A stretch of 64,000 nt of DNA from Pseudonocardia sp. SCN 73-27 (GTDB lineage: Bacteria > Actinomycetota > Actinomycetes > Mycobacteriales > Pseudonocardiaceae): positions 1-64,000 of the forward strand of contig MEGH01000099.1 in the NCBI GenBank assembly GCA_001725415.1, read 5' to 3'. The notes beneath the pieces were generated by a model. The model was not told the origin of the DNA, ran no database searches, and was given only the letters and a program-made list of their open reading frames with translations. The position numbers and the translations under genes are program-made. Positions 43,537-60,862 of this stretch are shown in pieces (within the stretch, counting starts at the first letter, position 1; the number at the start of each line of letters is the position of its first letter).

Positions 43537-43540
43537 CAGG

Positions 43541-43579: not shown

Positions 43580-43591
43580 ACCGTGTAGCGC

Positions 43592-44320
43592 TCAGTCTGC
43601 TTCGCGGAGCAGCCTGGCCAGGTAGTCGAGGTCTTGCTGCAGGAGCGCCACGGCGCCGAGCGGCGTAGGCGCACTGGGGCGGCGCTCGTCGACCTGCACG
43701 ACCATGGCCACGGCGTTGGCCGCGATCTGCTCAGCCACCGGGCCAGCGGGATGAGCGGGTGCAGGGTGGAACCACCAGGCCACCCAGTTGCACATGCCGA
43801 TGATCGACAATGCCGTGACGCGACTGTCGAGGGGCCGGAACAGGCCGGCCACGATGCCCTCGTCGAGCACCCCGGTGACCTCGCGCAGGACGGCCCGGCG
43901 CGAGTCCAGGTGACGCTCCGCGATGTCGGAGGGCAGCGCCTGCTCGCTGCGGTCGAGCGTCCGGAACTGGGCCGGGTTGTTGGCTCGCTGCAGGACAAGA
44001 GCCCGCACGAGCGCCTGTAGCTTCTGAGTGGAATCGAGGTCCGATCGTTCCCTCAGCGCACGGAGCGAGTTCGCGGCCTCCTGACTAGTCGCCTCGACCA
44101 TCGCGACAAGCAGTTCCTCCTTGCTCCGCACGTAGTTGTAGAGGTTCGGCCTGCTCAGACCCACCGCATCCGCGACGTCCTGCAGCGTCGTCCCCTCGTA
44201 GCCGCGCTCGGCGAACAGCTGCATCGCCTGCTCGAGGATCTCGCTCATCATGAGCTTGCGCCGCGGCGCCTGCTTCCGGGGACCCCGGCCGTTGCCGCCC
44301 CGCTCGACGTCCTCCGTCAC
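43592..44320 (-). CDS. TetR/AcrR-family transcriptional regulator
   Basis: A regulator of about 242 residues. Its helix-turn-helix lies near residues 25-75 ('ILEQAMQLFAERGYEGTTLQ', then 'VADAVGLSRPNLYNYVRSKEE', split here). The C-terminal half matches TetR_C_33-like ligand domains ('CNWVAWWFHPAPAHPAGPVA'). Start uncertain: GTG at 44320 or, 16 codons earlier, at 44368. It lies directly upstream of, and in line with, the aryl-CoA operon, which has its own promoter and palindromes in the 87-bp gap. Probably senses the aromatic acid or its CoA ester. Confidence 0.9.
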   Translation of the reverse strand: MTEDVERGGNGRGPRKQAPRRKLMMSEILEQAMQLFAERGYEGTTLQDVADAVGLSRPNLYNYVRSKEELLVAMVEATSQEAANSLRALRERSDLDSTQKLQALVRALVLQRANNPAQFRTLDRSEQALPSDIAERHLDSRRAVLREVTGVLDEGIVAGLFRPLDSRVTALSIIGMCNWVAWWFHPAPAHPAGPVAEQIAANAVAMVVQVDERRPSAPTPLGAVALLQQDLDYLARLLREAD

Positions 44321-44431
44321 CCGGTCACCGTAGACGCCGTCCACTCCGGAGACCGGCGGCTCCTCCACGTCGACCCGGCCGCCGCCGGGCCGAGGGGTGA
44401 CGACCCGGCCCGGGTCGGCCCGGTGGGCAGG

Positions 44432-45250: not shown

Positions 45251-46831
45251 TCAGGTCGTGGGGCCGGCGCCGCGCGGCCGGCGGTCCGCGGCGCGCAGGG
45301 GGCCTCCGGACCCGTACTGCATCGTCGAGGCGTAGCAGGCCAGGTAGAGCGCGAGGAACTGGCTCGGGTCGTCGAGGTCGACGCCGAGCACGTCGAGCAC
45401 CCGCCGGATCCGGTACGCCACCGTGTTGCGGTGGAGGTAGAGCTGCTCGGAGGTGCGGCTGACCGATCGGTTGTTCTCCAGGTAGACCCGCAGCGTCGTG
45501 GCGTACTCCTTCTGCTTGGCCTTGCCCAGTTCGGCCAGCGGGGCCATCAGGTCGTCGATGCTGTGCCGGACGGAGCTGGACGAGTACCACTCGACGAGCA
45601 GCCTGCTCAGCCCCGGCGCATCGAACAGCACCGGCTCGTTCAGCGCGCCGCGCAGCCGGGCGCTCTGCAGGGCGGAGTCCGCCTCGGCCCGGGAGGCGCG
45701 CATCCCCTGGAGGCCCTCGTGGGACCCGCCGATCCCGCAGAGCACCTCGAGGCCGGGCAGCGACGCGACCATCGCGTCGATCACGGTCTGCGCCGCGGTC
45801 CGCAGCCTGCGCAGCTCGGCCGGCCCGTCGGGACGGCTGCTGCTGCGCAGCAGCAGCACGCCACCCGCGCGGGGCGCCATCGTCCACCGCCCCTCGTGGT
45901 GGGCCACGGTCTGCACCGCGACCCGGCCGAGGGTCTGCGTGTGGTGATAGCTGGCGACGGGGTCGTCCTGCGCGAGCGCCGGCAGGTTCGCGAACTCCAG
46001 CTGCACGATCTGGTGCCACGCCTCGACCCGGACGCCGACGTCGGCGGCGCGGCGGATCAGCGGTCCGCCCTCCTCGGTGGTGGCGTCCAGCAGCTGGTTG
46101 AGCAGCTCGCCCGCGGACATGAGGGACAGCTCGTGCGCGCGTTCGGTCTCGATCGAGCGCCGCGTCATCGCCGCGGCGATCCGCCACATCGCCAGCTGCG
46201 CGAGCGCGTCCTCGGCGGCGGTCGTCGACTCGCGCTGCAGCCAGGGGCCTTCCGGGTCGGTCAGCACGGCGGGGATCCCGGTCAGCTGCGGGTCCCTGGC
46301 CACCAGCTGCAGGCCGAACGTCCGGGCGGCGCCGCTGCGCCGCAGCAGCGCCGCGTCGGTGAGCTGCTCGGACTCCAACGCGGCGACCTCGGCGCACACG
46401 CCGATGGCTCGATCCAGCAGCGTCGGCAACTGCGCGTCGAGCATCCGGACGACGGTCGTCAGCAGCCGGGTGACGTCGGCCGGTCTGGTGAGACGGATCA
46501 GCGACAGGTCCTCGCGGCGGGCCAGCGCAACCGCGCTGAGCGAGGGCCGCGGCGCGTCGGACTGCAGGACCAGGCCCGCGACGTCGGCGCCCAGCCGGCG
46601 CAGCGCGACGTCGAGCTTGTAGCCCTGCGCGTCACGCGACGCCGCCCGGCTGAGCACGACCAGCGCCTGCGGCGGGCTCTCGCCGATGTCGTGCAGGTCC
46701 TCGGCCAGCCACACGGCCCGGACGTCACGGTCGGTGGTGCCCGCCAGCACGTCCACGAGCGCAGGCTCGCGCCGCTCCAGCTCGGCCAGCACGTCCGAAA
46801 CGGTCAGGCGCACCCATCGGGCTCCCTGCAT
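45251..46831 (-). CDS. PucR/CdaR-family transcriptional regulator
   Basis: A 526-residue regulator. The N-terminal PucR-type domain (about 5-125; 'VSDVLAELERREPALVDVLA', 'APRPSLSAVALARREDLSLI') senses a ligand, a GGDEF-like middle domain follows, and the C-terminal helix-turn-helix ('TSEQLYLHRNTVAYRIRRVL') binds DNA. The family controls purine and allantoin use and amino-acid or sugar-acid catabolism, usually as activators. The ATG at 46831 is preferred over upstream in-frame starts. It diverges from the nine-gene operon at 46966-58126. Confidence 0.9.
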   Translation of the reverse strand: MQGARWVRLTVSDVLAELERREPALVDVLAGTTDRDVRAVWLAEDLHDIGESPPQALVVLSRAASRDAQGYKLDVALRRLGADVAGLVLQSDAPRPSLSAVALARREDLSLIRLTRPADVTRLLTTVVRMLDAQLPTLLDRAIGVCAEVAALESEQLTDAALLRRSGAARTFGLQLVARDPQLTGIPAVLTDPEGPWLQRESTTAAEDALAQLAMWRIAAAMTRRSIETERAHELSLMSAGELLNQLLDATTEEGGPLIRRAADVGVRVEAWHQIVQLEFANLPALAQDDPVASYHHTQTLGRVAVQTVAHHEGRWTMAPRAGGVLLLRSSSRPDGPAELRRLRTAAQTVIDAMVASLPGLEVLCGIGGSHEGLQGMRASRAEADSALQSARLRGALNEPVLFDAPGLSRLLVEWYSSSSVRHSIDDLMAPLAELGKAKQKEYATTLRVYLENNRSVSRTSEQLYLHRNTVAYRIRRVLDVLGVDLDDPSQFLALYLACYASTMQYGSGGPLRAADRRPRGAGPTT

Positions 46832-46845
46832 CCGGTAGTTCACCA

Positions 46846-46886
46846 CTGTGCAGCCTGAACAATCAAGGCTCCGAGCTTGTGCACAG
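46846..46886. promoter_or_regulatory. Nested inverted repeats between pucR and the catabolic operon
   Basis: An outer perfect repeat CTGTGCA (46846-46852) / TGCACAG (46880-46886) encloses AGCCT-N9-AGGCT (46852-46870), and the right arm is part of TGTGCACA. This is the main symmetrical structure in the 134-bp divergent gap and a likely PucR site. Confidence 0.45.
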
Positions 46887-46965: not shown

Positions 46966-47958
46966 GTGGCAGCATCGCGTCTCGGCATCCTCCTGCTCAG
47001 CACCACCGCGCCGGAGCGCCTCGGTCAGATGTCCGCTCGGTGCGAGGACCTCGGTTTCGACGAGGTGTGGCTGGCCGAGGACTACTTCTTCTACGGCGGT
47101 TTCAACGCCGCTGCCCAGGCGCTCGCCGCCACCGGTCGGATTCGGGTCGGGCTCGGGGTGATCTCCTGCGTCGCCCGGCACCCGGCTGCGACGGCGATGG
47201 AGATCGCGTCGCTGGAGCGTTCCTTCCCGGGTCGGCTGTTGCCGGGGATCGGGCACGGCGTCCCGGCCTGGGTGGCGCAGATGGGTCTGACCCCGAAGTC
47301 ACCGATGCGCGCGCTGACCGAGGCCGTCACCGGTATCCGGACGTTGCTGACCAGCTCGGAGCCGTTCACGACCGAGGGCGAGTACTTCACCTTCCGCGAC
47401 GTGACCCTCTTCCACCCGCCGGGTGGCGAGGTGCCGCTGTACCTGGGAGTGATCGGGGCCAAGGGCTGCGAGCTGGCCGGCCGGATCGCCGACGGCAACG
47501 TGTTGTCGGTACTCGCGCCGACCGAGTACGTCACGTGGGCGCGCGACCTCGGGCAGCGCGGAATGGATGCGGCGGGCCGATCGGGCACGTTCAGCGTCCC
47601 GACCTACGTGCTCACCGCGGTGGACGAGGACCGCGACCGGGCCCGCCGAGCCGTGCGCGAGTCGCTGGCGTTCTACCTGGACGCGATCGGTCCGACCCCG
47701 CTGACCGGCGTGATCGGCATCAACGACACCGTCGCCGAGCTGGCCGCCGGCGGCTTCGCCGCGCTCGTCGACGGCATGCCGGACGAGTGGGTCGACCGAC
47801 TGGCGATCTGCGGCACCCCTGACGAGGTGGCCAAGCGGATCGAGCAGTACTGGGCCGCGGGCGCCGACAGTGTCGTCCTCTCGCCACAGCCTGCCGGCAC
47901 CGTCGAGTCCCAGCTCGAGCTGATCGCCGCCGAGGTGCTGCCGCGGTTGAGCCGGTGA
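46966..47958 (+). CDS. Luciferase-like (LLM class) flavin-dependent oxidoreductase
   Basis: A 330-residue luciferase-family enzyme, closest in pattern to F420-dependent oxidoreductases ('LGFDEVWLAEDYFFYGGF', 'ATGRIRVGLGVISCVARHP', 'FPGRLLPGIGHGVPAW', 'LGVIGAKGCELAGRIADG'). It could oxygenate or reduce a ring substrate; RutA of pyrimidine degradation, a distant relative, opens a uracil ring. The GTG start follows GGAAAGGA. It is first in the operon, and its stop overlaps the DUF917 GTG. Confidence 0.9.
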   Translation: MAASRLGILLLSTTAPERLGQMSARCEDLGFDEVWLAEDYFFYGGFNAAAQALAATGRIRVGLGVISCVARHPAATAMEIASLERSFPGRLLPGIGHGVPAWVAQMGLTPKSPMRALTEAVTGIRTLLTSSEPFTTEGEYFTFRDVTLFHPPGGEVPLYLGVIGAKGCELAGRIADGNVLSVLAPTEYVTWARDLGQRGMDAAGRSGTFSVPTYVLTAVDEDRDRARRAVRESLAFYLDAIGPTPLTGVIGINDTVAELAAGGFAALVDGMPDEWVDRLAICGTPDEVAKRIEQYWAAGADSVVLSPQPAGTVESQLELIAAEVLPRLSR

Positions 47959-49043
47959 CGGCGGTCGAGGTGGGCACGCGGATCGACCTGGACAACCTAC
48001 CGGCACTCTCCCTGGGCTGCACCGTCTTCGCCGGGGGCGGCGGCGGGGACCCGCGCATCGGCGAGCTCATGGCGATGGAGGCGATCCACCGGCTCGGACC
48101 CGTCGAGGTACTGCCGCTGGAGGCGCTCGCCGACGACGACCTGATCATGCCGTGCGGGATGATCGGGGCCCCGACGGTCATGGTGGAGAAGATTCCGAAC
48201 GGGGCGGAGGGGCGGGTCATCCGCGAGACCTACGAGGACCGTTTCGGCCGGCACGTCGCCGCGGTGATGCCGTTCGAGATGGGCGGGATCAACGGCGTAC
48301 TGCCGGTCGCGTGGGCCGCCTACGCCGGCCTGCCGCTGCTCGACGCGGACTTCATGGGCCGTGCCTTCCCCGAGCTGCAGATGCTCACCCCGCACCTGTA
48401 CGGGATGTCCGGCTCGCCGGCGGTGATCACCGACGAGCGGCTGCAGACCATCGTGTTCAACACCCGCGACAACATCTGGCTCGAACGGCTCGTCCGCAAC
48501 TGCGTGGCGACGCTCGGTGGGTCCGCCTGCGGCGGCCTCTACCCGATGACGGCCGGGGCCGCGCGCCGACCTGCCATCACCGGCACGGTGACGCGGGCCA
48601 TCCGGATGGGCGAGGCGATCCGGCGCGGGGGCGAGGACCCGCTCTCCGCGATCGGGCAGGTCGCGCCGCTGACCCGGCTCGGTCAGGGCAAGGTCGTCGA
48701 CATCGAGCGGCGCACCAGCGGCGGTTTCGTCCGCGGCTCCGCGCTGGTCGAGGGCCTCGCCGCGGACAAGGGTCGGCTCTTCCGGCTGGAGTTCCAGAAC
48801 GAGAACCTCGTCGTGCTCGAGGACGGGGAGCCGCTCGCAACGGTCCCGGACATCATCACGCTGCTCGACCTGCACACCGGGCACGGGATCGTCACCGAGG
48901 GCATCCGCTACGGGCAGCGGATCGAGATCGTCGCGTTCCCCTCGCCCGAGGTGTGGACCAGCGCCGAGGGTCTCTCTGCGGTCGGCCCGCGGGCGTTCGG
49001 CTACGACTTCGACTACGTCGGTGTAGGGGTCCGTCATGGCTGA
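47955..49043 (+). CDS. DUF917 family protein
   Basis: A 362-residue DUF917 protein (PF06032), a family nearly always encoded with hydantoinase/oxoprolinase-like genes and of unknown biochemistry. Blocks are 'LGCTVFAGGGGGDPRIGE', 'FEMGGINGVLPVAWAAYAGL', 'DADFMGRAFPELQM' and 'LDLHTGHGIVTEGIRYGQR'. Cytoplasmic. It overlaps its neighbours on both sides (4 and 8 bp), which argues for a complex or strict stoichiometry with the hydantoinase-like protein. Confidence 0.9.
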   Translation: MTAVEVGTRIDLDNLPALSLGCTVFAGGGGGDPRIGELMAMEAIHRLGPVEVLPLEALADDDLIMPCGMIGAPTVMVEKIPNGAEGRVIRETYEDRFGRHVAAVMPFEMGGINGVLPVAWAAYAGLPLLDADFMGRAFPELQMLTPHLYGMSGSPAVITDERLQTIVFNTRDNIWLERLVRNCVATLGGSACGGLYPMTAGAARRPAITGTVTRAIRMGEAIRRGGEDPLSAIGQVAPLTRLGQGKVVDIERRTSGGFVRGSALVEGLAADKGRLFRLEFQNENLVVLEDGEPLATVPDIITLLDLHTGHGIVTEGIRYGQRIEIVAFPSPEVWTSAEGLSAVGPRAFGYDFDYVGVGVRHG

Positions 49044-50601
49044 GCCGGGCCGGCTGCGCGTCGGCATCGACGTCGGCGGCACCAACACCGACGCCGTGAT
49101 CGTCGACGACCAGGCCAAACTCCTGGCCAAGGTCAAGCACCCCACCACCTCCGACGTCACGACCGGCATCCTCTCGGCGCTGCGGCTGGTGCTCGCCCAG
49201 CTCGACGGCGCCGCCGCAGGGATCAGCCACGTGATGCTGGGTACGACCCACGCCACCAACGCGATCCTGGAGCGCCGCAACCTCAACAGGGTCGCCGCGA
49301 TCCGCCTCGGCGGCCCTGCCACGCACTCCGTCCCCCCGTTGGCCGGATGGCCCGCCGACCTGCGCGCGGCGATCTCCTGCGGCGCGACGATCGTCGACGG
49401 CGGGGTGGAAATGACCGGGGAGCCGATCGTCCCGCTCGACGAGGACGCCGTGCGCCGCTTCCTCGACGAGGTGGCCGAGCAGGCCGAGGGGGTGGCGATC
49501 TCCGGAGTCTTCTCGCCCGTGCTGTCCGACCAGGAGTACCGGGTCGAGGAGCTGGTCCGGGAGGTGCTCGGCGACGTCCCGGTCTCGCTCAGCCACGAGA
49601 TCGGCTCGCTGGGGCTGCTGGAGCGGGAGAACGCGTGCGTGCTCAACGCCGCGCTGGTCGCGGTGGCGGCCAGGGTGACCGCCGGGCTGGGCGACGCGAT
49701 GACCGTCAACGGGATCTCGGCCGAGGCCTACATCGCGCAGAACGACGGCACCCTGATGAGCCTGGACTACGTGCGCCGCTACCCGATCCTCACCATCGGC
49801 AGCGGTCCCACCAACAGCATGCGCGGGGCCAGCTACCTGACCGGGGCGACCGACGCGCTGGTCGTGGACGTGGGCGGCACGTCGACCGACATCGGCATCC
49901 TCACGGCCGGCTTCCCGCGGGAGTCGTCCACCGCGGTCGAGATCGGCGGGGTGCGGACGAACTTCCGGATGCCCGACCTGGTCTCGCTGGCCATCGGCGG
50001 CGGCACGATCGTCGGCCCGGCCGGCGACGACGTGCAGCTCGGGCCGGGCAGTGTCGGGTACCGCCTCACCTCCGAGGCGCTGGTCTTCGGCGGGACGGTG
50101 CCCACGTTGACCGACGCGATCGTCGCCGCCGGCCGGGCGCACGGCATCGGCGACCCCTCCCGCACCGCCGCGCACGAGCGGCTGCTGCGCCGGGCCGTCG
50201 CCGCGTCCGACGCCCGGATCGAGGAGGGCGTGGACCGGGTGAAGACGTCCGGCCGTGAGCTGCCGCTGATCGCCGTGGGCGGGGGCAGCGGGCTCATCCC
50301 CGACTCGCTGGCCGGGGTCGCCGGGGTCGAACGGCCGGAGAACTACGACGTCGCCAACGCGATCGGCGCGGCGATCGCGTCGGTGTCCGGCGAGCTCGAC
50401 CGTGTCTTCGCCTACGGCAAGGACGGCCGCGACGAGGCCATCGCCGAGGCCGTCCGGTTGGCCAGGGACGAGGCGATCCGTGCGGGCGCCGATCCAGGGC
50501 ACGTCGAGGTGGTCGAGATCGAGGAGGTCCCGTTGGCCTATCTCACCGATCCGGTCGCCAGGGTTCGGGTGAAGGCGGCCGGGCCGTTGAAGACACATTG
50601 A
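49036..50601 (+). CDS. Hydantoinase/oxoprolinase family protein (HyuA-like)
   Basis: A 521-residue ATP-dependent ring-opening-type enzyme of the hydantoinase A/5-oxoprolinase family with an actin-like ATPase fold. Phosphate loops are 'GIDVGGTNTDAVIVDD' and 'LVVDVGGTSTDIGIL', 'MLGTTHATNAILERR' follows the first, and 'LAIGGGTIVGPAG' the second. Members hydrolyse cyclic imides and lactams such as hydantoins or oxoproline; short forms pair with DUF917 or HyuB. It completes a candidate ring-cleavage step. Confidence 0.9.
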   Translation: MAEPGRLRVGIDVGGTNTDAVIVDDQAKLLAKVKHPTTSDVTTGILSALRLVLAQLDGAAAGISHVMLGTTHATNAILERRNLNRVAAIRLGGPATHSVPPLAGWPADLRAAISCGATIVDGGVEMTGEPIVPLDEDAVRRFLDEVAEQAEGVAISGVFSPVLSDQEYRVEELVREVLGDVPVSLSHEIGSLGLLERENACVLNAALVAVAARVTAGLGDAMTVNGISAEAYIAQNDGTLMSLDYVRRYPILTIGSGPTNSMRGASYLTGATDALVVDVGGTSTDIGILTAGFPRESSTAVEIGGVRTNFRMPDLVSLAIGGGTIVGPAGDDVQLGPGSVGYRLTSEALVFGGTVPTLTDAIVAAGRAHGIGDPSRTAAHERLLRRAVAASDARIEEGVDRVKTSGRELPLIAVGGGSGLIPDSLAGVAGVERPENYDVANAIGAAIASVSGELDRVFAYGKDGRDEAIAEAVRLARDEAIRAGADPGHVEVVEIEEVPLAYLTDPVARVRVKAAGPLKTH

Positions 50602-50706
50602 CCTGTGCCGGCCGCACAGGTGCGGCGACGACCTCGTGCAGCCGGCACACAGCCTCAGGTGACCGTTCCCAACTTTGGCCGACACGACCGTCGGAAAGGA
50701 GGTGTC

Positions 50707-51558
50707 ATGGAACTGAGTACAGCGGACTCGGTCGACGCGGCCCTCGACGAGCTGTCGCGGCGGGGCGAGCGGTGCCGGGTCCTCGCGGGTGGCACCGACG
50801 TGATGATCCAGCTCGCCCGCCGGGAGATCACACCGGAGCACCTGCTGCACGTCGAGCGGCTCGGCGAGCTGCGGGCTGTCGAGACCGAGGGCAGCACCCG
50901 GCTCGGCGCGCTGGTGACCCACCGGGACCTGGCCGTCGGCCGGCTCGGACCCGGCTATGCCGCGGTCGCGGAGTCGGCCGCCACCGTAGGCGGCCTGCAG
51001 ACCCAGGTCGTCGGCACGATCGGCGGCAACGTCTGCAACGCCTCGCCCGCCGCGGACACGTTGCCCGCGCTGCTCGTGCACGACGCCGAGGTGACGCTGC
51101 GCAGCGTGCGGGGGAGCCGGACCGTCCCGCTGGCCGAATTCGTCGTCGGCAGGCGGGTCACCACGCGGGCGCCCGACGAGCTGCTCACCACGATCACCCT
51201 GGGCCGGCCAATACCGCGCACCGGGGACGTCTATCTCAAGGTCGGCAGGCGCAGCGCGATGGAGGTGGCGATCGTCGGGCTCGCGGCACGGCTGACGTTC
51301 GACGGCACCGGCGTCGTCACCGACGCCCGGATCGCCGTCGCGTCGGTGGGACCGCGCCCGCTGCGCTCGGTCGGCGCCGAGACAGCCCTCGTCGGCGGCA
51401 CCGGGGACGCGGAGTCGGTCCACGCGGCCGCGAAGGCCCTGCTGCAGGACGTCGACCCGATCGACGACGTGCGCGGGACCGCGGACTACCGGCGCCGCGT
51501 GATCCCCGGGCTGCTCGGTAGGGCCGTCCGGGTCTGCGCAGAGCGAGCGGAGGGATGA
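50707..51558 (+). CDS. Molybdenum hydroxylase set 1, FAD subunit
   Basis: A 283-residue FAD-binding medium subunit of the xanthine dehydrogenase family. FAD loops are 'RVLAGGTDVMIQLARR' and 'VVGTIGGNVCNASPAADTLP'. A strong Shine-Dalgarno (AAAGGAGG) 5 nt before the ATG reinitiates translation after a 105-bp gap, the largest in the operon. That gap might hold an internal promoter, but I see none clearly. It overlaps the Fe-S subunit gene. Confidence 0.92.
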   Translation: MELSTADSVDAALDELSRRGERCRVLAGGTDVMIQLARREITPEHLLHVERLGELRAVETEGSTRLGALVTHRDLAVGRLGPGYAAVAESAATVGGLQTQVVGTIGGNVCNASPAADTLPALLVHDAEVTLRSVRGSRTVPLAEFVVGRRVTTRAPDELLTTITLGRPIPRTGDVYLKVGRRSAMEVAIVGLAARLTFDGTGVVTDARIAVASVGPRPLRSVGAETALVGGTGDAESVHAAAKALLQDVDPIDDVRGTADYRRRVIPGLLGRAVRVCAERAEG

Positions 51559-52031
51559 GCCCGGTGGACGTCACGTTGACCGTCAACGGTAGGCGGGAGC
51601 AGGTCGAGGTCGGCCCGGCCGAGACGCTGCTGGGGATGTTGCGCGAGCGGCTGCGGCTGACCGGCACCAAGGAGGGCTGCAACGAGGGCGAGTGCGGCGC
51701 GTGCACGGTGCTGGTCGACGGGCTCCCCGTGGACTCCTGCATCTATTCGGCCGCCGCCACGTCCGGACGCTCGGTCGAGACCGTCGAGGGTCTCGCCGAC
51801 GACGACCTGGGCCGCGACCTGCAGGCCGCGTTCGTCGCCGCCGGCGGCGTGCAGTGCGGGTTCTGCACGCCCGGCTTCCTGACGACCCTCGTCGCCGTGC
51901 TGCGGGAGAACCCTGAACCGTCCGAGCCGGAGCTGCGCGAGGCGCTGGCCGGCAACATCTGCCGCTGCACCGGCTACAGCCAGATCCTCGACGCGGTCGC
52001 CGCGACGATCTCCGGGAGGAACCGACGATGA
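51555..52031 (+). CDS. Molybdenum hydroxylase set 1, 2Fe-2S subunit
   Basis: A 158-residue small subunit with two 2Fe-2S clusters. The plant-type cluster is in 'GCNEGECGACTVLVDG' plus a following Cys ('VDSCIYS'), and the helical-domain cluster in 'QCGFCTPGF' and 'NICRCTGY'. It carries electrons from the Mo centre to FAD. Overlaps of 4 bp on both sides. Confidence 0.95.
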   Translation: MSPVDVTLTVNGRREQVEVGPAETLLGMLRERLRLTGTKEGCNEGECGACTVLVDGLPVDSCIYSAAATSGRSVETVEGLADDDLGRDLQAAFVAAGGVQCGFCTPGFLTTLVAVLRENPEPSEPELREALAGNICRCTGYSQILDAVAATISGRNRR

Positions 52032-54349
52032 GCGTCATCGGCGAGCGCGTCCCGCGCAGCGACGGGCGGGCGAAGGCCAGCGGCGACGCCGAGTACGGCG
52101 TCGACCACGCCGAGCCGGGCATGATCTGGGGCGCGCTGGTGCGCTCGCCCGTCAGCTCGGGCCGGATCACCCGGCTCGACACCGCGCCGGCGCTGGCGAT
52201 GCCCGGGGTGCACGCCGTGGTCACGGCGGCGGACGCGCCCGACACCCGGGCCGGCTGGGTGCTGCGCGATCAGCGGCTGTTCGCCGCCGACCGGGTGCTC
52301 TACGAGGGCCAGCCGGTCGCCGCGGTGGCGGCCGACACCCTTGAGCTGGCCCGGGAGGCCGCGGCAGCCGTCGTGCTCGAGATCGAGCCGCTGCCCGCGG
52401 TGGTCGACCTCGACGCGGCGCTGCGTCCCGACGCGCCTCTCGTGCATCCCGATTGGGAGAGCTACGTCCCGGCCCTCGGCCCCGACGCCGACTACCCGCG
52501 CCACGGGAACCTCGCAGCCGAGTCGGTGTCCGACCCGCCCGGGGTCGACGACGCCTTCGCCAGGGCCCACCGGGTCGTCACCGACGAGTTCGTGGTGCAG
52601 CGCCAGTACCAGGCCTACATCGAGCCCAAGAGCGCGGTCGGGACCTACCGCGACGGCCGCTACACCGTCCACACGGCGCACCAGTTCCCCTACAACGTCC
52701 GCGACCGGGTGTCGCAGTTCCTCGACGTCCGGCCGTCCGCGGTGCGCATCGTCGGGCACACGATCGGCGGCGGGTTCGGCGCCAAGCTCGACGCGGCACT
52801 GGAGCCGTACGCCGCGCTGCTGTCGAAGGCGGCGCGGGGGCGGGCGGTCAAGCTCGTCAACACCCGCACCGAGGACCTGCTCACCTGCCCCAGCCGGGAG
52901 GGCGCGATCACCCGCGTGCGGTCCGCGCTCGACGAGGACGGCACGATCATCGCCCGCGAGCTGGAGGTGATCGCCGACAACGGCGCCTACAGCGGGGAGA
53001 TGCCCTGGCTGGCCAGCATCGCGCTGCACTGCGCGCGCGGCGTCTACCAGGCCGGACCGACGCGGGTGACCGCCCGGCTCGTCTACACGAACACGGCTCC
53101 GACCGGCGCGTTCCGCGGTGTCAACGGCACCTACCTGTACCACGCCGTCGAGCGGCACATGGACCACATCGCCGCCGAGCTGGGCGTCGACCGGCGGGAG
53201 TACCGGCTGCGCCACCTGTTCGACGACGGTGAGGAGCTGCTCAACGGCCAGGTGCTGACCGACGCCGGGATCCTGCGCGAGGGCTTCGACGCGATCGAGG
53301 CGGCGGCGCCGTGGGCGAAGCTGGAGGCGGAGCGGCGGCCTTACCGCGGCGTCGGGATCGCCGCGGCCTGGTGGCTGACCAACCCGATGCCCGGCACGGC
53401 CGTGGTGAAGCTGCACGAGGACGGAACCGCCGCGGTGATCACCGCGGCCACGGACAACGGCTCGGGTGCGGTGTCCATGGGCGTCACGCAGATCGTGGCG
53501 GAACGGCTGGGCATCCCGCCGTCGGACGTGTTCGTCACGCTGCCCGACACCGACGTCGCCGGGTTCGACGCGGGGTCGCAGGGCAGCCGCACCACCCGGA
53601 TCGTCGGAAAGGCCTCGCAGATCGCCGCCGACGAGGTGATCACGAAGCTCAAGGATGTCGCGGCGGGGCTGTTGGAGGCCGCGGCCGACGACCTCGAGGT
53701 CGCCGACGGGACGGTCCGGGTCAAGGGCGCACCGGGCACCAGCGTCCCGATCGCCGTGGTCGCCGCGACGGCGACGAACACCGTCGGGCCGATCCAGGGC
53801 ACCGGGTCGTTCGTCACCCCGTTCCCGGACTTCAACCCCGGCTGTGCCACCGGGTTGATGCTGCCGTCGTTCCCGACGCCGACCTACCACGTGCACCTGG
53901 CCGAGGTGGAGGTCGACCCGGTCACCGGCACGGTGCAGGTGCTGCGCTATCTGGTCGCGCAGGAGGTGGGGGCGGTGATCAGCCCGGACGGCACCTACGG
54001 CCAGGTGATGGGCGGGGTGACCCAGGGCATCGGGTACGCGCTGCACGAGAGCCTGCGGATCGGCGAGGACGGCCGCTACCGCGAGCGGACGCTGGAGAGC
54101 TACCGGCTGCCGCTGGCCGGCGACGTGCCCCGCGTCGAGTTCTTCCCCCTCGAACACCCCGACCCCGACGGCCCGCACGGTGCCAAGGGCGTCGGGGAGG
54201 GGCCGATCCTGCTGCCCGCCGCGGTCATCGCCAACGCGGTCGGCGACGCGATCGGCCGACCGCTGAACAACATCCCGATCACGCCGGAGGAGGTCCTCGC
54301 GGCGCTGCAGACAGCCGAGTTGAGGAACGTCGAGGAGCACATGCGATGA
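52028..54349 (+). CDS. Molybdenum hydroxylase set 1, molybdopterin-binding subunit
   Basis: A 773-residue catalytic subunit holding the Mo-pterin cofactor. Landmarks are 'RSDGRAKASGDAEYGVD', 'GGGFGAKLDAAL', 'APTGAFRGVNGTYLYH' and the catalytic Glu in 'GAKGVGEGPIL'. The 'MGQG' loop, whose Gln contacts Mo in xanthine oxidase, appears as 'DNGSGAVSMG', with Ser instead of Gln, so the active site differs from that of set 2. Order is FAD-FeS-Mo, all overlapping. Substrate probably an N-heterocycle. Confidence 0.93.
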   Translation: MSVIGERVPRSDGRAKASGDAEYGVDHAEPGMIWGALVRSPVSSGRITRLDTAPALAMPGVHAVVTAADAPDTRAGWVLRDQRLFAADRVLYEGQPVAAVAADTLELAREAAAAVVLEIEPLPAVVDLDAALRPDAPLVHPDWESYVPALGPDADYPRHGNLAAESVSDPPGVDDAFARAHRVVTDEFVVQRQYQAYIEPKSAVGTYRDGRYTVHTAHQFPYNVRDRVSQFLDVRPSAVRIVGHTIGGGFGAKLDAALEPYAALLSKAARGRAVKLVNTRTEDLLTCPSREGAITRVRSALDEDGTIIARELEVIADNGAYSGEMPWLASIALHCARGVYQAGPTRVTARLVYTNTAPTGAFRGVNGTYLYHAVERHMDHIAAELGVDRREYRLRHLFDDGEELLNGQVLTDAGILREGFDAIEAAAPWAKLEAERRPYRGVGIAAAWWLTNPMPGTAVVKLHEDGTAAVITAATDNGSGAVSMGVTQIVAERLGIPPSDVFVTLPDTDVAGFDAGSQGSRTTRIVGKASQIAADEVITKLKDVAAGLLEAAADDLEVADGTVRVKGAPGTSVPIAVVAATATNTVGPIQGTGSFVTPFPDFNPGCATGLMLPSFPTPTYHVHLAEVEVDPVTGTVQVLRYLVAQEVGAVISPDGTYGQVMGGVTQGIGYALHESLRIGEDGRYRERTLESYRLPLAGDVPRVEFFPLEHPDPDGPHGAKGVGEGPILLPAAVIANAVGDAIGRPLNNIPITPEEVLAALQTAELRNVEEHMR

Positions 54350-56751
54350 CCATCGTTGAACCCGACAGGACCACCTACACCGGCACCAGGGTGCGGCGCA
54401 CCGAGGACCCGAGGCTGCTCGCGGGCCGCGGCCAGTACGTCGACGACGTCACGGTGCCCAAGATGATCGAGGCAGCGGTGCTGCGCAGTCCGCTGGCGCA
54501 CGCCCGGATCACCGGCATCGACGTCAGCCGGGCCCGCGAGCTGCCCGGCGTCTTCGACGTCATCACCGGCCGCGACCTGGCGGCCGTCGCGGGCGAGCAG
54601 CCGGTGATCTGGTTCCCGATCCCCGACCAGCGGATCGCGCGCACCCACGCGCTGGCCGTCGACCGGGTCCGCTGGGTCGGGCAGGCGGTTGCGGCCGTGG
54701 TGGCGGTGAACCGCTACGTGGCCGAGGACGCGCTGGAGCTGATCGAGGTCGACTACGAGCCGCTGCCGGTCGTCGCCGACCTGGACGCGGCGCTCGCCCC
54801 GGACGCGCCGAAGCTCTACGACGACTGGCCCGACAACGTCAGCGGTTCGCTGACCTACACCGCCGGCGACGCCGAGGCCGCCTTCGCCGAGGCCGACGTG
54901 GTCGTCCGGGAGCGCTTCACCCACGGCCGGGCGTTCGGCTGCCCGCTGGAGCCGCGGGGTTGCATCGTCGAGTGGGACGACTTCGCCGGGACCGTCGACG
55001 TCCACCTGTCCACGCAGTCGCCGAACCTGGCCCGTGACCTGCTGTCCGAGGTGCTCGGGGTACCGGTGCACAAGATCCGGGTGCGCACCCCCAACCTGGG
55101 CGGCGGTTTCGGCAACAAGTTCGACTTCTACGGCGAGGAGGTGATCGCCGCGGTCCTGTCGCGGCGCACCGGTCGCCCCGTCAAGCTCATCGAGGACCGG
55201 CTCGACAGCTTCGTGGCCACCTCGCACTCCCGCGACCAGCGCCTGGACTTCGAGATGGCACTGCGCAACGACGGCACGATCCTCGGGCTGCGCGGGATCT
55301 CCTACGGCGTGCTCGGCGGAGCGCTGGGCACGGTCGGCGCCGGGCCGCCGTGGGCGTCGGTGCTCACCTGCATGGGCCCCTACAAGATCCCGAACCTGGA
55401 CGTGACGGTGAAGGCCGTCGTCACCAACCGGTCGCCGTACGGCTCCTACCGCGGCTGGGGCGTGCCGAAGGGCAACATCGTGCACGAGCGGCTGATCGAG
55501 ATCGCCGCCCGGGAGCTGGGGATGGACCGCGCGGCAATCCGCCGCAAGAACTTCCCGGCGCCCGAGGAGTTCCCGTTCTTCAGCGGGGTCGCCTTCACCT
55601 ACGACAGCGGTGATTACGCCGCCTGCCTGGACCTGGCGATGACCAAGGTCGACGAGCTGGGCTGGCGGAACCGGCAGACCGCGGCGCGGGCGGAGGGGCG
55701 CTCGCTCGGCATCGGCTACTCGTTCCACGTCGAGCCGAGCGCCTACGGGCCGAGCCGGATCCTCAACCTGGTCGGCCTGGCCCACTCCGGCTTCGACGAG
55801 GTGACCGTGCGGATGGACTCCATCGGCAAGGTCACGGTCTACTCCGGGCAGATCAACATGGGTCAGGGGACGCACACGATCTACGCGCAGCTGGCCGCCG
55901 ACGGGCTCGGCATCCCGATGGAGGACGTCGTCGTGGTCACCGGCGACACCGACTCCTGCCCCTACACCGGCTACGGCACCGGCGGCAGCCGGGCCGCCCC
56001 GCTCGGCGGCGCGGCGATCCTGCGGGCGACCGAGCGGTTGCAGGCCAAGATCCTCCGCGTTGCCGCGGAGCTGCTCGAGGCCTCGCCCGACGACCTGCAG
56101 ATCGAGAAAGGCGTGATCAGCGTCAAGGGCACGACGTCGCGCTCGGTGACGACCCGCGACGTGGGCGACGCCGCCTACCGCAGGCTGCTGAACAAGATGC
56201 CCGAGTCGGAGATGCCGACGCTGGAGGAAGTCGACGTGTTCGACCCACCCAACATGGCCACCTCCTACGGGTGCACGGCGCTGCTGGTGGAGGTCGACCG
56301 GGGCACCGGCGCGGTCACCCTGCTGGACTGCCTGCAGGCCCACGACTGCGGCACGGTGATCAACCCGATGCTGGTGGACGGCCAGCTGGCGGGCGGGCTC
56401 GCCCAGGCCCTCGGCGGGGCGCTGCTGGAGGAGCTCGTCTACGACGAGGAGGGCCAGCTGCGCACGGCCAGCTTCATGGACTACCTGCTGCCGACGGCGA
56501 TGGAGATCCCGCCGTTCCACTTCTTCCACCAGGAGACGCCCGCCCCGGACATTCCCGGTGGGATCAAGGGGGTGGGGGAGGCGGGCACGATCGCCGGCGT
56601 CTCGCTCGTCGCCAGCGCCGTCGACGACGCGCTCAGCGACCTCGGGGTGACGGTGACCCGGTTCCCGATCACGCCGCCGCGGCTGCTCGACCTGATCCAG
56701 GCCGCCCGGACCCCCACCGGGCAGGCCCACACCGAGGAGGACGCGCGATGA
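54346..56751 (+). CDS. Molybdenum hydroxylase set 2, molybdopterin-binding subunit
   Basis: An 801-residue catalytic subunit of a second enzyme of the same superfamily. Present are 'EDPRLLAGRGQYVDD', 'GGGFGNKFDFYGEE', 'SPYGSYRGWGVPKGN', 'GQINMGQGTHTIYAQ' and the catalytic Glu in 'GIKGVGEAGTI'. The 'YRGWG' loop differs from the 'AYRCSF' loop of true CO dehydrogenase, so it is a CoxL-like hydroxylase and not form I CODH. It overlaps the set 1 Mo subunit by 4 bp, and both sets appear on one message. Confidence 0.93.
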   Translation: MTIVEPDRTTYTGTRVRRTEDPRLLAGRGQYVDDVTVPKMIEAAVLRSPLAHARITGIDVSRARELPGVFDVITGRDLAAVAGEQPVIWFPIPDQRIARTHALAVDRVRWVGQAVAAVVAVNRYVAEDALELIEVDYEPLPVVADLDAALAPDAPKLYDDWPDNVSGSLTYTAGDAEAAFAEADVVVRERFTHGRAFGCPLEPRGCIVEWDDFAGTVDVHLSTQSPNLARDLLSEVLGVPVHKIRVRTPNLGGGFGNKFDFYGEEVIAAVLSRRTGRPVKLIEDRLDSFVATSHSRDQRLDFEMALRNDGTILGLRGISYGVLGGALGTVGAGPPWASVLTCMGPYKIPNLDVTVKAVVTNRSPYGSYRGWGVPKGNIVHERLIEIAARELGMDRAAIRRKNFPAPEEFPFFSGVAFTYDSGDYAACLDLAMTKVDELGWRNRQTAARAEGRSLGIGYSFHVEPSAYGPSRILNLVGLAHSGFDEVTVRMDSIGKVTVYSGQINMGQGTHTIYAQLAADGLGIPMEDVVVVTGDTDSCPYTGYGTGGSRAAPLGGAAILRATERLQAKILRVAAELLEASPDDLQIEKGVISVKGTTSRSVTTRDVGDAAYRRLLNKMPESEMPTLEEVDVFDPPNMATSYGCTALLVEVDRGTGAVTLLDCLQAHDCGTVINPMLVDGQLAGGLAQALGGALLEELVYDEEGQLRTASFMDYLLPTAMEIPPFHFFHQETPAPDIPGGIKGVGEAGTIAGVSLVASAVDDALSDLGVTVTRFPITPPRLLDLIQAARTPTGQAHTEEDAR

Positions 56752-57623
56752 AGCCACCTGCCGTCCGCTACGCCCGGGCCGGCGACGTCCGGGAGGCCGT
56801 CGCACTGCTCGCCGAGCACGGCTCCGACGCGAAGGTGCTCGCCGGCGGCCAGAGCCTCGTGCCGCTGATGAGCTTCCGGCTCGCCCGACCGTCGATCCTC
56901 GTCGACATCAACAGGATCGGCGGGCTCGACCGCATCGAACAGGACAACGGCAGCCTGCTGATCGGAGCGATGGCCCGACAGCGCGACGTCGAGCTCAGCG
57001 ACGTCGCCGCGGCGGCGGTGCCGCTGCTGCCGCAGGCGCTGCGTTACGTCGGGCACGTCACCATCCGCAACCGGGGCACCGTCGGCGGCAGCCTCGCGCA
57101 TGCCGACCCCGCGGCGGAGCTGCCCGCGGTGGTCACCGCGCTCGGCGGGGACCTGGTACTGGAGGGCCCCGGCGGCACCCGGTCCGTCGCGGCCGAGGAC
57201 TTCTTCACCGGCACCTTCACCACCGTGATGGCACCCGACGAGGTGCTGGTCGGCGTCCGGCTGCCACGGCTGCCCGATCGCACCGGCGTCGCCGTCGAGG
57301 AGCTGGCCCGCCGGCACGGCGACTTCGCCGTCGTCGGGGTGGTCGCCGCGGTCCACCTCGCCGCCGACGGCACGGTCGACCTGGTGCGGCTGGCCGCGAG
57401 CGGGGTCGACTCCGTCCCGGTCCGGCTGCACGCCGCGGAGGCCGCGCTCAGCGGGGCGCGGCCGACCGCAGATGTCCTCGAGGCGGCGGCGGCGACCGTC
57501 GACGCGAGCATCCATCCGACCGACGACGTCCATGCTCCGGCGTCGTACCGGCGACACGTCGCCCGGCTGCTGGTGCAGCGGGCACTGGGAGCAGCCGTCG
57601 AGCGGAGCGGAGCGGAGCGATGA
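56748..57623 (+). CDS. Molybdenum hydroxylase set 2, FAD subunit
   Basis: A 291-residue CoxM/CutM-like FAD subunit: 'KVLAGGQSLVPLMSFRLARP', 'TIRNRGTVGGSLAHADPAAE' and 'EDFFTGTFTTVMAPDEVL'. It overlaps both neighbours (ATGA). Order here is Mo-FAD-FeS, opposite to set 1. Confidence 0.95.
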   Translation: MKPPAVRYARAGDVREAVALLAEHGSDAKVLAGGQSLVPLMSFRLARPSILVDINRIGGLDRIEQDNGSLLIGAMARQRDVELSDVAAAAVPLLPQALRYVGHVTIRNRGTVGGSLAHADPAAELPAVVTALGGDLVLEGPGGTRSVAAEDFFTGTFTTVMAPDEVLVGVRLPRLPDRTGVAVEELARRHGDFAVVGVVAAVHLAADGTVDLVRLAASGVDSVPVRLHAAEAALSGARPTADVLEAAAATVDASIHPTDDVHAPASYRRHVARLLVQRALGAAVERSGAER

Positions 57624-58126
57624 CCGAACTGGCGAGCGAGTCGACTGCACAGCGCGACACCCTGTCGATCACGGTGACCGTCAACGGTCACGCCTATACC
57701 GCCGACTGCGAGCCGCGGGTCACTCTGGCGGACTTCCTGCGGCACACGTGCGGCCTCACCGGCACTCACCTCGGCTGCGAGCACGGCGTCTGCGGAGCCT
57801 GCACAGTCCTGGTCGACGGCCGGTCGGCGCGGGCCTGCCTGACGCTGGCGGTGCAGGCGGACGGCGCCACGATCACAACCGTCGAGGGACTGGCCACCGG
57901 CAACACGCTCAACCCGCTGCAGGAGGCCTTCTGGGACAACCACGGCCTGCAGTGCGGGTTCTGCACGCCGGGCATGCTGATGACGGCGACGGAGCTGCTG
58001 GCCGACAACCCGGACCCCGACGCGGCCGAGGTGCGGGAGTGCTTGTCCGGCAACCTGTGTCGCTGCACGGGCTACGACTCCATCGTGCGCTCGGTGCTCG
58101 ACGCGGCGCGGCGGATGCGCGGCTGA
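57620..58126 (+). CDS. Molybdenum hydroxylase set 2, 2Fe-2S subunit
   Basis: A 168-residue CoxS/CutS-like subunit with clusters in 'GCEHGVCGACTVLVDG', 'ARACLTLA', 'QCGFCTPGM' and 'NLCRCTGY'. It is the last gene of the operon and is followed 5 nt later by a strong hairpin. No XdhC/CoxF-type cofactor-insertion factor or MoCo biosynthesis gene follows, so maturation must rely on genes elsewhere. Confidence 0.95.
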   Translation: MTELASESTAQRDTLSITVTVNGHAYTADCEPRVTLADFLRHTCGLTGTHLGCEHGVCGACTVLVDGRSARACLTLAVQADGATITTVEGLATGNTLNPLQEAFWDNHGLQCGFCTPGMLMTATELLADNPDPDAAEVRECLSGNLCRCTGYDSIVRSVLDAARRMRG

Positions 58127-58223: not shown

Positions 58224-58736
58224 TCAGCGCCGGCCGGCCTCGGCCAGGTCGTCGGTGCAGTGGAGCCGAACCTTGTAGTAGGCATCGGTCGTGAGCCAGT
58301 TCGTCGCGCTGGAGTTCAGCGGGCCTGTCTTCGTCCCCGTGATCAGGCTCCAGTGCTGCGGGTCCCTCGGATCCGGCGTCAGCTCCCACCCGGTGATCGA
58401 GACGCCGATCGGCCACGGCCGGCTGCTGTCCCAGGGGCTCTCGAGAATCTCGAGCCCCGGCGGCAGCGTCGTGAAGTCCGGTGCGTACTTGTCCTTGGTG
58501 AGGTAGGGGTGGTCGGCCGGACAGCTGTAGGCGGGGACCGACTCGCTGGTCCAGCCCTTCATCAGACGCCACTCGCCGTCGACGGTGATCGTCCCGGAGG
58601 CCGTGGTCGGCGACGGCGTGCTCGCCTGCGCCGCCGTCGCGCCGAGCACCCCGGTGACGACGACGCCGACGGCGACGGCCGCTGCACGCCGCCGCCAGCG
58701 CCGGCCGGGCTCGGGGGTCTGTTCCTGGTTCGTCAT
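58224..58736 (-). CDS. Secreted protein of unknown function
   Basis: A 170-residue exported protein. A basic N-terminus ('GRRWRRRAAAVAVG') and hydrophobic core end in 'TAAQAST', a probable signal-peptidase I site near residue 38; a Tat-like RR pair is present. The mature part ('GEWRLMKGWTSESVPAYSCP', 'LPPGLEILESPWDSSRPWP', 'VRLHCTDD') has two Cys, likely disulfide-bonded, and is not recognised. It diverges from the metalloprotease gene. Confidence 0.8.
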   Translation of the reverse strand: MTNQEQTPEPGRRWRRRAAAVAVGVVVTGVLGATAAQASTPSPTTASGTITVDGEWRLMKGWTSESVPAYSCPADHPYLTKDKYAPDFTTLPPGLEILESPWDSSRPWPIGVSITGWELTPDPRDPQHWSLITGTKTGPLNSSATNWLTTDAYYKVRLHCTDDLAEAGRR

Positions 58737-58831
58737 CGCTCCTCCTGGTGGGTGTGTCCCGTCCGGTGCCCTCCGTGTCGGGGCGTCCGGTGTGACCACC
58801 ATCTCCGAGACGAGCAGGTGCGACCGTCGTT

Positions 58832-58873
58832 CGATCGGACCCCGCCCAGGGGGATCCCCCACCCGTCCGATCG
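58832..58873. promoter_or_regulatory. Composite palindrome in the divergent gap before the metalloprotease gene
   Basis: Outer 9-bp arms CGATCGGAC (58832-58840) and GTCCGATCG (58865-58873) enclose a 12-bp perfect palindrome GGGGGATCCCCC (58849-58860). It lies in the 300-bp gap between the secreted-protein and protease genes, which otherwise shows only a repeated ACACGCCGCA (58946 and 58996, 50 bp apart). Confidence 0.5.
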
Positions 58874-59036
58874 GCCGACACCGCGCCCACAGATGGGCTG
58901 GGCTCCGCCATCCGCGGCGGGCGGTCAACCCGGCACACAGTGCTGACACGCCGCATCCGGGTAACGACGCGCAGTGCACGACCGAGCAACCCGCCACACG
59001 CCGCAGATCCGATGCAGTGCGCCAAGGGGGGACGTC

Positions 59037-60539
59037 ATGGCCTTTCCGCTCGGAGGAGCCGAACTCGGCACGCCACGCTGCCGAAAGGCGAATCCTCCCG
59101 GGAGCAGTGGCCTGCACCCCAGCGCCTACGGCCCGCCCGCGGGCCGCTGGCCCGGCACCGACCTGACCTACTCCGTCGACCCTTCCGGCGGCGGCGTCGA
59201 GTACGACGCCGGCGGGAGACTCTCCTCGCAGAACATCGCCGACTGGATCGCCGATGCGTTCGAACTGTGGGCCGATGCGTGGTCCCCGCTCACCCTGACC
59301 CGCGTCCCGCCCGACAGCAACCCACCCGCCGACATCAGGGCCGCGTTCGTCGGCGCGGACGTCCAGCCCGACTTCTTCGACACCAGCAGCGTCGGGAACG
59401 GCGAGTTCCCACCCGATGGCACGATCCATTTCACGACCGCGCGCAACTTCACCGCGACCTCGATGAAGGCCACGGCGATCCACGAGATGGGTCACGCCCT
59501 GGGGTTGACCCACTCGGGCGACGAGGCGTCGGTGATGTACCCGTTCGGCCTCGACGTGGTGGTCATCGACCAGGACAGCCGCGACGCGATCAACGACGTC
59601 TACGCGCCCTGGTCGCCGCAGGCTCAGCTGGGCGACCGCGCCACCGACGACCGGCCGGCGCTCGCGGCATCAGGGTTCGCGAGCTTCGGCGGCAGCAGCC
59701 GCGAGCTCAGTGCCGTCTGGCGCGGGTCGAACGGGGACCGCACGATCTACCACTCCCGGTTCCGCGCCGGCTCGTGGACACCGCAGGAGCGCATCGCGGG
59801 CGCAGCCTCGACCGACGGGCCGGCGCTCGCGTCCTACGACCTTCGTGACGGAACGCCGTCGACGGGGCTGATGATGCTCTGGAAGGGCGCCGCCGGTGAC
59901 TCCACGCTGTGGTGGAACGTCAACCCCGGCAACGGCTGGAGCCAACCCCGGCAGATGCCGGGCGCCGGCACGAGCGCGCGCCCCGCGTTGGCCTCCTTCA
60001 CCGACTCCGTCGCCGCCTGGAAGGGCGCCGGCGACGACACCGGCATCTACTGGTCGCTGTGGCAGGCGGGCGGCTGGGCTCCGCAGCAACGCGTTCCCGA
60101 CGCGGCATCCGGGCACGGCCCCGCCCTGGCGGTGCTCAACCGCCGCCTCTACCTGTTCTGGCGCGGGGTCGGGGACGACCATGCCCTCTGGTACAGCTCC
60201 CGCGGTTCCGGTGAGGACCAGCTCTGGCAGCCCCGCAGGCTGATCCAGGCCGAGGACTTCAGCCTCGACATCGGCGGAGGCGTCTGGATCACCCCCGGGT
60301 CCACGCACGGACCGGCGGCCGCGCACCACGTCGACCGGATCCTCCTGGCCTGGAAGGGCGTCGAGGGCGACTCCGGCATCTACTGGTGCGCGTTCAACGG
60401 TCGCGAGTTCTCTCCGCAGATCCGCGTCGAGGACGTCGGTACCAGCCGCGGCCCGGGTCTGGGCAGTCTCGACGACCGCACCTTCATGATGTGGAAGGGC
60501 GTCTCCGGCGACAACACGCTCTGGTGGTCCCTCTACTGA
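59037..60539 (+). CDS. Matrixin-type metalloprotease with six-repeat WKG (propeller-like) domain
   Basis: A 500-residue protein. The N-terminal metzincin domain has the zinc motif 'HEMGHALGLTH' (His 149) and Met-turn 'SVMYP' (Met 167), so it should be an active M10-like protease. Residues about 228-500 hold six repeats of some 50 residues, each with a 'W(K/R)GxxGD' core and an aromatic 'xxxW' strand, resembling lectin or sialidase-like beta-propellers. The ATG at 59037 follows AAGGGGGG. No signal peptide or propeptide cysteine switch is seen, although such proteases are normally exported. An upstream start at 58974 adds no signal either. Confidence 0.87.
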   Translation: MAFPLGGAELGTPRCRKANPPGSSGLHPSAYGPPAGRWPGTDLTYSVDPSGGGVEYDAGGRLSSQNIADWIADAFELWADAWSPLTLTRVPPDSNPPADIRAAFVGADVQPDFFDTSSVGNGEFPPDGTIHFTTARNFTATSMKATAIHEMGHALGLTHSGDEASVMYPFGLDVVVIDQDSRDAINDVYAPWSPQAQLGDRATDDRPALAASGFASFGGSSRELSAVWRGSNGDRTIYHSRFRAGSWTPQERIAGAASTDGPALASYDLRDGTPSTGLMMLWKGAAGDSTLWWNVNPGNGWSQPRQMPGAGTSARPALASFTDSVAAWKGAGDDTGIYWSLWQAGGWAPQQRVPDAASGHGPALAVLNRRLYLFWRGVGDDHALWYSSRGSGEDQLWQPRRLIQAEDFSLDIGGGVWITPGSTHGPAAAHHVDRILLAWKGVEGDSGIYWCAFNGREFSPQIRVEDVGTSRGPGLGSLDDRTFMMWKGVSGDNTLWWSLY

Positions 60540-60862
60540 CGCGCACCGTCAGCCCGCTGCCGCGCCATCCGCTCGCCGGTGGCGGCCCGACGGGGCCGTA
60601 CGCGCCCGATTTGGGGAGTCGAACCCCAGACCTACGCACGAAGGGAATTGCGATCGGCGTGTTCAGGGTGCCCGCTGAGTCCATCGGCGCCAGTCACGGC
60701 GTCCCCCGTGAACACTGGTCACACCGGGCACCGCCGTTTCGTTCCACGATCCGTTCCACGGCAAAGATCGTTGTGCCGGTCGCTGAGACCCGCTCTACGG
60801 CACGATCCTCAGCCCGCCCCGAGGGCCCACCTCACAGGTCGTGACGGGCATGGGCGATCTCC
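60540..60862. other. Intergenic region with tRNA-like relic and short direct repeats
   Basis: No gene is supported. Besides the T-arm-like element at 60604-60636 it contains two copies of CGTTCCACG (60740-60748 and 60752-60760), 12 bp apart. It lies between convergent genes (protease and RutA-like monooxygenase). Confidence 0.45.
60604..60636 (-). other. tRNA 3'-end-like fragment (T-arm), possible attachment-site relic
   Basis: On the minus strand, TGGGG-TTCGACT-CCCCA (60628-60612) is a perfect T-stem with a consensus TTCRANY loop, preceded by a plausible variable loop and followed by an acceptor-like stretch. The anticodon and D arms do not fold upstream, so it is not a full tRNA. Integrating elements duplicate tRNA 3' ends at their borders. 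Confidence 0.35.

Follow-up and report, generated by a model that had tools for sequence, protein, structure and literature searches.

What does a cell do with a gene set that places a luciferase-like protein, a DUF917 protein and a short HyuA-type ATPase beside two complete molybdenum (Mo) hydroxylases? We addressed this question for nine consecutive genes in a 64,000-nucleotide stretch of Pseudonocardia sp. SCN 73-27 (Pseudonocardiaceae; contig MEGH01000099.1, positions 1 to 64,000, hereafter the window). We consider it evenly balanced whether they form an operon, under PucR control, for the catabolism of an electron-poor N-heterocycle, which would be hydroxylated, hydrogenated and hydrolysed. 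The two Mo hydroxylases would put water-derived oxygen on ring carbons, so that a cyclic lactam or imide results from an aromatic azine or azole; with F420H2, gene 1 would then saturate a C=C or C=N bond of the ring, which abolishes aromaticity; and the short, ATP-dependent HyuA and the DUF917 (S-Me-THD) protein would open the saturated cyclic amide. The reductive step is proposed because an aromatic lactam resists hydrolysis until it is saturated, as in the reductive pyrimidine pathway. We infer both this order of steps and the N-heterocyclic nature of the substrate. The original prediction had read the set as N-heterocycle catabolism by a PucR-linked, operon-like group in which two Mo hydroxylases accompany a cyclic-amide module, and this stands as the simplest reading; it knew of no characterised pathway to match, and we found none with this gene set in the literature searched, most subscription journals being outside its coverage.

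The listing of open reading frames (ORFs) places the nine genes on the plus strand at 46966-58126. Their junctions, from gene 1 to gene 9, measure -4, -8, +105, -4, -4, -4, -4 and -4 bp, that is, seven overlaps of 4 or 8 bp and a single gap of 105 bp, with 11,088 bp of summed coding sequence in a span of 11,161 bp; GGAGG precedes the ATG of gene 4 at 50707. A Pfam search confirmed every operon component, including two complete FAD/2Fe-2S/Mo hydroxylases ordered M1-S1-L1 (MH1, 50707-54349) and L2-M2-S2 (MH2, 54346-58126), where M, S and L denote the FAD, iron-sulfur and Mo subunits. Listing and Pfam together bear out the layout first described for this DNA, nine same-strand genes with one 105-bp gap, read away from a PucR regulator whose HTH_30 domain lies on the opposite strand.

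A scan of genome contigs with gene 2 returned 148 relatives, and the 80 best of these, corresponding to 78 loci, were retained. Outside the nine genes, our own codon-usage gene calls took the place of a standard gene finder, and neighbour genes were family-scanned in part, the rest being labelled by BLAST similarity to a scanned member. The search for the same order in other genomes, which the original prediction had called for, recovered the nine genes and the divergent PucR intact in 7 of the 78 loci (L042-L048), all from Pseudonocardia: dioxanivorans CB1190, acidicola, bannensis, asaccharolytica and three metagenome-assembled genomes (MAGs). Against L043, L044 and L046, dN/dS is 0.13-0.46 for all ten genes, which shows them to be, by this measure, under purifying selection. 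The iron-sulfur, FAD, Mo-subunit and ATPase motifs are all intact in the nine-gene set. Because the order is kept in seven loci, dN/dS is low and the cofactor motifs are intact, the arrangement is not due to chance. Its distribution is patchy, with a gene 2 homologue (E <= 1e-20) in 112 of 297 genomes drawn from the family; in these, matches of at least 86% identity come from four same-genus genomes only, the window's own counted, and the next stands at 60%. The flanks were compared at more than 40% identity over half the length. Downstream (58224-63998), five of six tested genes match CB1190 and no other related locus, while the sixth, cut by the window end, has no match in the related loci; upstream (38006-44368), four tested genes have no match in any related locus. 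The flanks are not conserved, and the unit therefore appears to be PucR plus the nine genes. The downstream genes were rejected as members of the system, their matches being limited to CB1190.

The regulator has a C-terminal HTH_30 domain of the PucR type (80.1 bits against a cut-off of 27). As listed, its ORF (574 aa) would overlap gene 1 by 10 bp; the codon-usage call sets the start at 46846, so that about 120 bp separate the two divergent genes. PucR is divergent in all seven named nine-gene loci. Their aligned divergent regions share TGTGC-N7-ACAATCA-N12-TGTGC, which is exact in five of the seven (L042, L043, L044, L046 and L048) and matches once in the window and in none of 100 shuffles, a weak control given that the pattern was derived from an alignment including the window. 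This element is a candidate PucR operator, and we infer that PucR controls the operon.

Both hydroxylases fall in the xanthine oxidase family, with FAD, 2x[2Fe-2S] and Mo subunits and their cofactor motifs complete in each set, in agreement with the two Mo hydroxylases originally predicted. The best PDB match of L2 is quinoline 2-oxidoreductase (1t3q, 552 bits), with CODH close behind (533 bits). The possibility that MH2 is a CODH was rejected: L2 scores 612.6 of the 991 bits of the CoxL equivalog cut-off, and the YACSFR of CODH 8uem, whose Cys we take to be an active-site residue, aligns with YRGWGV in L2, so that the Cys motif is absent. L1 is closest to 4-hydroxybenzoyl-CoA reductase (4-HBCR; 1rm6, 267 bits) and reaches 429 of 994.6 bits for the 4-HBCR alpha-subunit equivalog, on which ground MH1 as a 4-HBCR was likewise discarded. 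A GE motif, presumably catalytic, is kept near the C-terminal end of both L1 and L2, and quinoline and 6-hydroxypseudooxynicotine dehydrogenases are among the solved structures related to the Mo subunits.

Gene 2 has both PF06032 and PF20906, which places it in the S-Me-THD (DUF917) superfamily. In NCBIfam it matches only two models, NF058532 (S-methyl thiohydantoin desulfurase, 83.1 of 450 bits) and NF058529 (thiohydantoin desulfurase, 70.9 of 440 bits), across most of its length; it was rejected as a thiohydantoin desulfurase on these equivalog cut-offs. Gene 3 combines Hydant_A_N with part of Hydantoinase_A (profile positions 1-174 of 291) and carries both DVGGTxTD motifs, and thus has the N-terminal and ATPase domains of HyuA; its nearest PDB entry is the N-methylhydantoinase 7hk5 (91.8 bits), with 6yra also matched. 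No HyuB family match (E <= 0.001) was found among the nine genes, to which this search was confined. In each of the 78 loci a same-strand HyuA homologue is adjacent to gene 2, no more than 400 bp away, and HyuA is present in all 29 shorter family loci as well, some of them from genomes already among the 78. The pair ranges over actinobacteria, Bacillota, Spirochaetota, Chloroflexi and an archaeal MAG. Of the ATP-dependent cyclic-amide hydrolase that had been predicted, the HyuA-type ATPase domains stand; the short form, the constant DUF917 neighbour and the lack of HyuB among the nine genes depart from it. In 11 of 46 annotated loci (one member scanned) the genes immediately downstream encode an SBP_bac_5-type peptide ABC transporter, and a cytosine-permease-like gene, below cut-off, is found beside some DUF917-HyuA loci that have no Mo hydroxylase.

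Mo hydroxylase genes accompany the pair in 18 of the 78 loci (L042-L059). Of these 18, 17 contain a homologue of gene 1, and the one that does not, L056, is a contig of 10.4 kb; the remaining 60 loci, several of them short contigs, contain none. A pair of Mo hydroxylase large-subunit genes is present in 16 of the 18 and a single one in L052 and L056, a count that used extended stretches for L055, L057 and L059. Rearranged versions of the cluster are found in Haloechinothrix, Prauserella, Tetrasphaera and several MAGs (THD and LLM standing for homologues of genes 2 and 1). P. kujensis has THD-HyuA-L2-M2-S2-DUF1028-SnoaL-LLM-FGD and a second, reversed HyuA-THD-M1-S1-L1 set. Haloechinothrix and Prauserella share THD-HyuA-L2-M2-S2-CoxG-LLM with CoxD/CoxE/XdhC maturation genes; an NCS1-like permease (weak, below the PF02133 cut-off) adjoins the Haloechinothrix clusters, and its Prauserella homologue is in pieces in the codon-usage gene calls. 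Tetrasphaera has M1-S1-L1-THD-HyuA divergent from LLM-L2-M2-S2-CoxG-FGD, and marine MAGs have M1-S1-L1-THD-HyuA-LLM. L038 (genome G285, evidently P. bannensis) and L039 carry a paralogous THD-HyuA-LLM-L1-S1-(M1)-HyuA-THD cluster by a PucR gene, 31-57% identical to the window genes, which is the same kit in another combination. A HapK/REDY-like (EthD-type) ORF of about 105 aa, so labelled from a family scan of the L048 copy only, recurs in L043, L045, L047, L048, L052, L053 and L054, at the operon end or after gene 1, with the L043 copy about 5 kb upstream of gene 1. The marine contigs L053 and L054, from bins assigned to Acidimicrobiales and Gammaproteobacteria, have the same gene order, which includes two L1-type hydroxylases, an M24 peptidase and a PLP enzyme.

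Gene 1 is a luciferase-like TIM-barrel protein (PF00296, 172.5 bits). Its closest relatives by sequence and by fold, the latter from matching its AF2 model to solved luciferase-like members, are F420-dependent reductases (Mer), and F420 enzymes outrank all FMN enzymes, with a modest margin for FGD; in Foldseek, FGD2 (5.9e-18) neighbours a luciferase (6.6e-18). The window's genome (G000) encodes cofH (512 bits) and FGD (558 bits), both over cut-off, and hence can make and reduce F420. FGD lies in or near five related clusters from four genera, in one of which pentose-phosphate genes accompany it, and FbiC genes also occur inside or beside related clusters. Judging from these relationships, gene 1 is more likely an F420-linked, ring-hydrogenating enzyme than a monooxygenase, presumably using F420H2 in the reducing direction. 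In H. alba (L120:1701-17156) and H. aidingensis (L121), PGL, transaldolase, 6PGDH, PGI, FGD and a second FbiC lie by HyuA-THD, a group that looks like a dedicated F420H2 regeneration cassette.

Several observations weigh against this assignment. Only Mer and Adf stand clearly above the FMN enzymes in the fold lists, and gene 1 scores 140 of 348.7 and 162 of 276 bits for the Mer equivalogs TIGR03555 and NF002619, so that it was not accepted as Mer itself. The stretches fetched for the nine-gene operons of Pseudonocardia showed no FGD; the over-cut-off FGDs of the window's genome are on two other contigs (C24 and C34, the latter with internal stops), and in Haloechinothrix 6-12 kb, with genes of the opposite strand, separate FGD from gene 1. 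Extended stretches, the source of three of the five FGD links, were fetched for none of the 60 control loci, several of them on short contigs, and the control for FGD is not strictly matched. Luciferase-like genes are common in these genomes, with 48 FGD-profile matches in the window's genome, and their abundance could partly account for the clustering. Searches for FGD and cofH covered 21 genome handles (among them G285 and G299, evidently the same genome since their matches were identical), and FGD over cut-off is absent from 5 of the 21. The marine MAG G309 (0.9 Mb, source of L054) has a gene 1 homologue and only a marginal cofH match (E 9.8e-4), possibly through misbinning or an incomplete genome, and in two further genomes the cofH matches are split and fall below cut-off.

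A more far-reaching reading, which we consider somewhat less likely than not, is an undescribed F420H2-dependent N-heterocycle route with two Mo hydroxylases, in which an F420H2 reductase (fed in Haloechinothrix by FGD and the pentose-phosphate genes) would dearomatise the ring and HyuA-DUF917 would open it without HyuB. If gene 1 were instead an FMNH2/O2 luciferase-like monooxygenase, as RutA and pyridine-degrading enzymes of this class are, it would cleave the hydroxylated ring, with hydrolysis to follow. We regard this as unlikely given the fold ranking, the FGD genes in or near related clusters, and a search of nine genomes that found no PF01613 flavin reductase within 40 kb of the operon on the same contig; the search covered that family only, some contigs end sooner (at least those of G000 and G285), and partner genes can also lie elsewhere. 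A RutA-like ring cleaver was set aside on these three grounds, and the ring-breaking flavin monooxygenase of the original prediction was not supported. Gene 1 as an F420-dependent, oxidising (Adf-like) dehydrogenase acting on a pathway alcohol, with FGD incidental, seems to us improbable: FGD makes F420H2, which would suit a reductase, and four genera have FGD in or near the cluster, one of them together with pentose-phosphate genes.

Other alternatives concern the substrate. The desulfurase names of gene 2's only NCBIfam matches would fit a sulfur-bearing imidazole of the thiohydantoin or ergothioneine type, desulfurated by DUF917 and opened as a hydantoin by HyuA after the hydroxylases had prepared the ring. 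We hold this to be less likely than an FMN-dependent gene 1, since the scores are far under cut-off, no ergothionase- or urocanate hydratase-like gene appeared in the scanned part of the neighbour genes (no targeted search was made), and the F420H2 step would have no obvious place. An already described purine, pyrimidine or nicotine/nicotinate pathway in unusual gene order, to which we give the least credence, could draw on the PucR regulator, the weak NCS1-like and cytosine-permease-like neighbours and the quinoline and 6-hydroxypseudooxynicotine dehydrogenases among the solved relatives; against it, no subunit reaches the XDH, CODH or 4-HBCR equivalog cut-offs, and urate-, allantoin- and nicotine-pathway enzymes were not found among the nine genes.

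Coordinates of the regulator, the candidate operator and the nine genes in the window
Feature	Position	Strand	Basis
PucR-family regulator	45251..46846	-	HTH_30, 80.1 bits; start by codon usage; divergent
Candidate PucR operator, TGTGC-N7-ACAATCA-N12-TGTGC	46847..46882		Aligned divergent regions
Gene 1, luciferase-like protein, predicted F420H2-dependent reductase	46966..47958	+	Bac_luciferase
Gene 2, S-Me-THD/DUF917, predicted ring hydrolase or partner	47955..49043	+	S-Me-THD_N/C
Gene 3, short HyuA-type ATPase, 521 aa	49036..50601	+	PF05378, PF01968
Gene 4, Mo hydroxylase 1 FAD subunit (M1)	50707..51558	+	PF00941, PF03450
Gene 5, Mo hydroxylase 1 2x[2Fe-2S] subunit (S1)	51555..52031	+	PF01799, PF00111; both Cys motifs
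Gene 6, Mo hydroxylase 1 Mo subunit (L1)	52028..54349	+	PF02738, PF20256
Gene 7, Mo hydroxylase 2 Mo subunit (L2)	54346..56751	+	PF02738, PF20256
Gene 8, Mo hydroxylase 2 FAD subunit (M2)	56748..57623	+	PF00941, PF03450
Gene 9, Mo hydroxylase 2 2x[2Fe-2S] subunit (S2)	57620..58126	+	PF01799, PF00111; both Cys motifs

Elsewhere in the window, the minus strand at 60863-63998 carries a second luciferase-like gene, of FMN type (RutA/SfnG-like, below cut-offs), together with genes for an HbpS-like protein, an SDR and, truncated at the window end, a CaiB-type CoA-transferase; CB1190 alone shows synteny with the first three of these four genes. At 38006-40814, also on the minus strand, genes resembling those for dihydroxybenzoyl-AMP ligase and salicylyl-CoA 5-hydroxylase, with scores under the equivalog cut-offs, suggest an aromatic acid pathway.

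The operon family, conserved in soil actinobacteria, links an F420-type reductase to apparent heterocycle catabolism, and the FGD and FbiC copies inside or beside related clusters make it genetically testable. It also offers a functional setting for the widespread pairing of DUF917 with short HyuA, for which we found no experimental account and in which some DUF917 relatives carry NCBIfam desulfurase names. If the proposal is right, the pair would be a new type of ATP-dependent cyclic amidase across bacteria and archaea.

Among known systems, the HyuA-HyuB N-methylhydantoinases and 5-oxoprolinases share with gene 3 the N-terminal domain of HyuA and a portion of its ATPase domain; unlike them, gene 3 has 521 aa, leaves the later Hydantoinase_A profile unmatched and has DUF917 as its constant neighbour, with no HyuB among the nine genes. 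Gene 2 is a distant relative of the thiohydantoin desulfurases, outside both equivalogs, and Qor (quinoline 2-oxidoreductase) is the best solved relative of L2. Mer, the F420-dependent methylenetetrahydromethanopterin reductase, belongs to the LLHT reductase clade; gene 1 differs in falling below its equivalog cut-offs and in standing in an apparent catabolic operon. In reductive pyrimidine catabolism, dihydropyrimidine dehydrogenase reduces an oxo-heterocycle and dihydropyrimidinase then hydrolyses the cyclic amide; the proposed logic is alike, whereas enzymes and cofactor differ throughout. The hydride transferases of picrate and 2,4-dinitrophenol degradation act on nitroaromatic substrates, and we know of no Mo hydroxylases or HyuA/DUF917 proteins in those systems. 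These LLHT enzymes are nevertheless like the proposed gene 1 step in that actinobacteria transfer hydride from F420H2 to an electron-poor ring in a catabolic pathway (PMC8498797), and the picrate pathway is a precedent for such a transfer.

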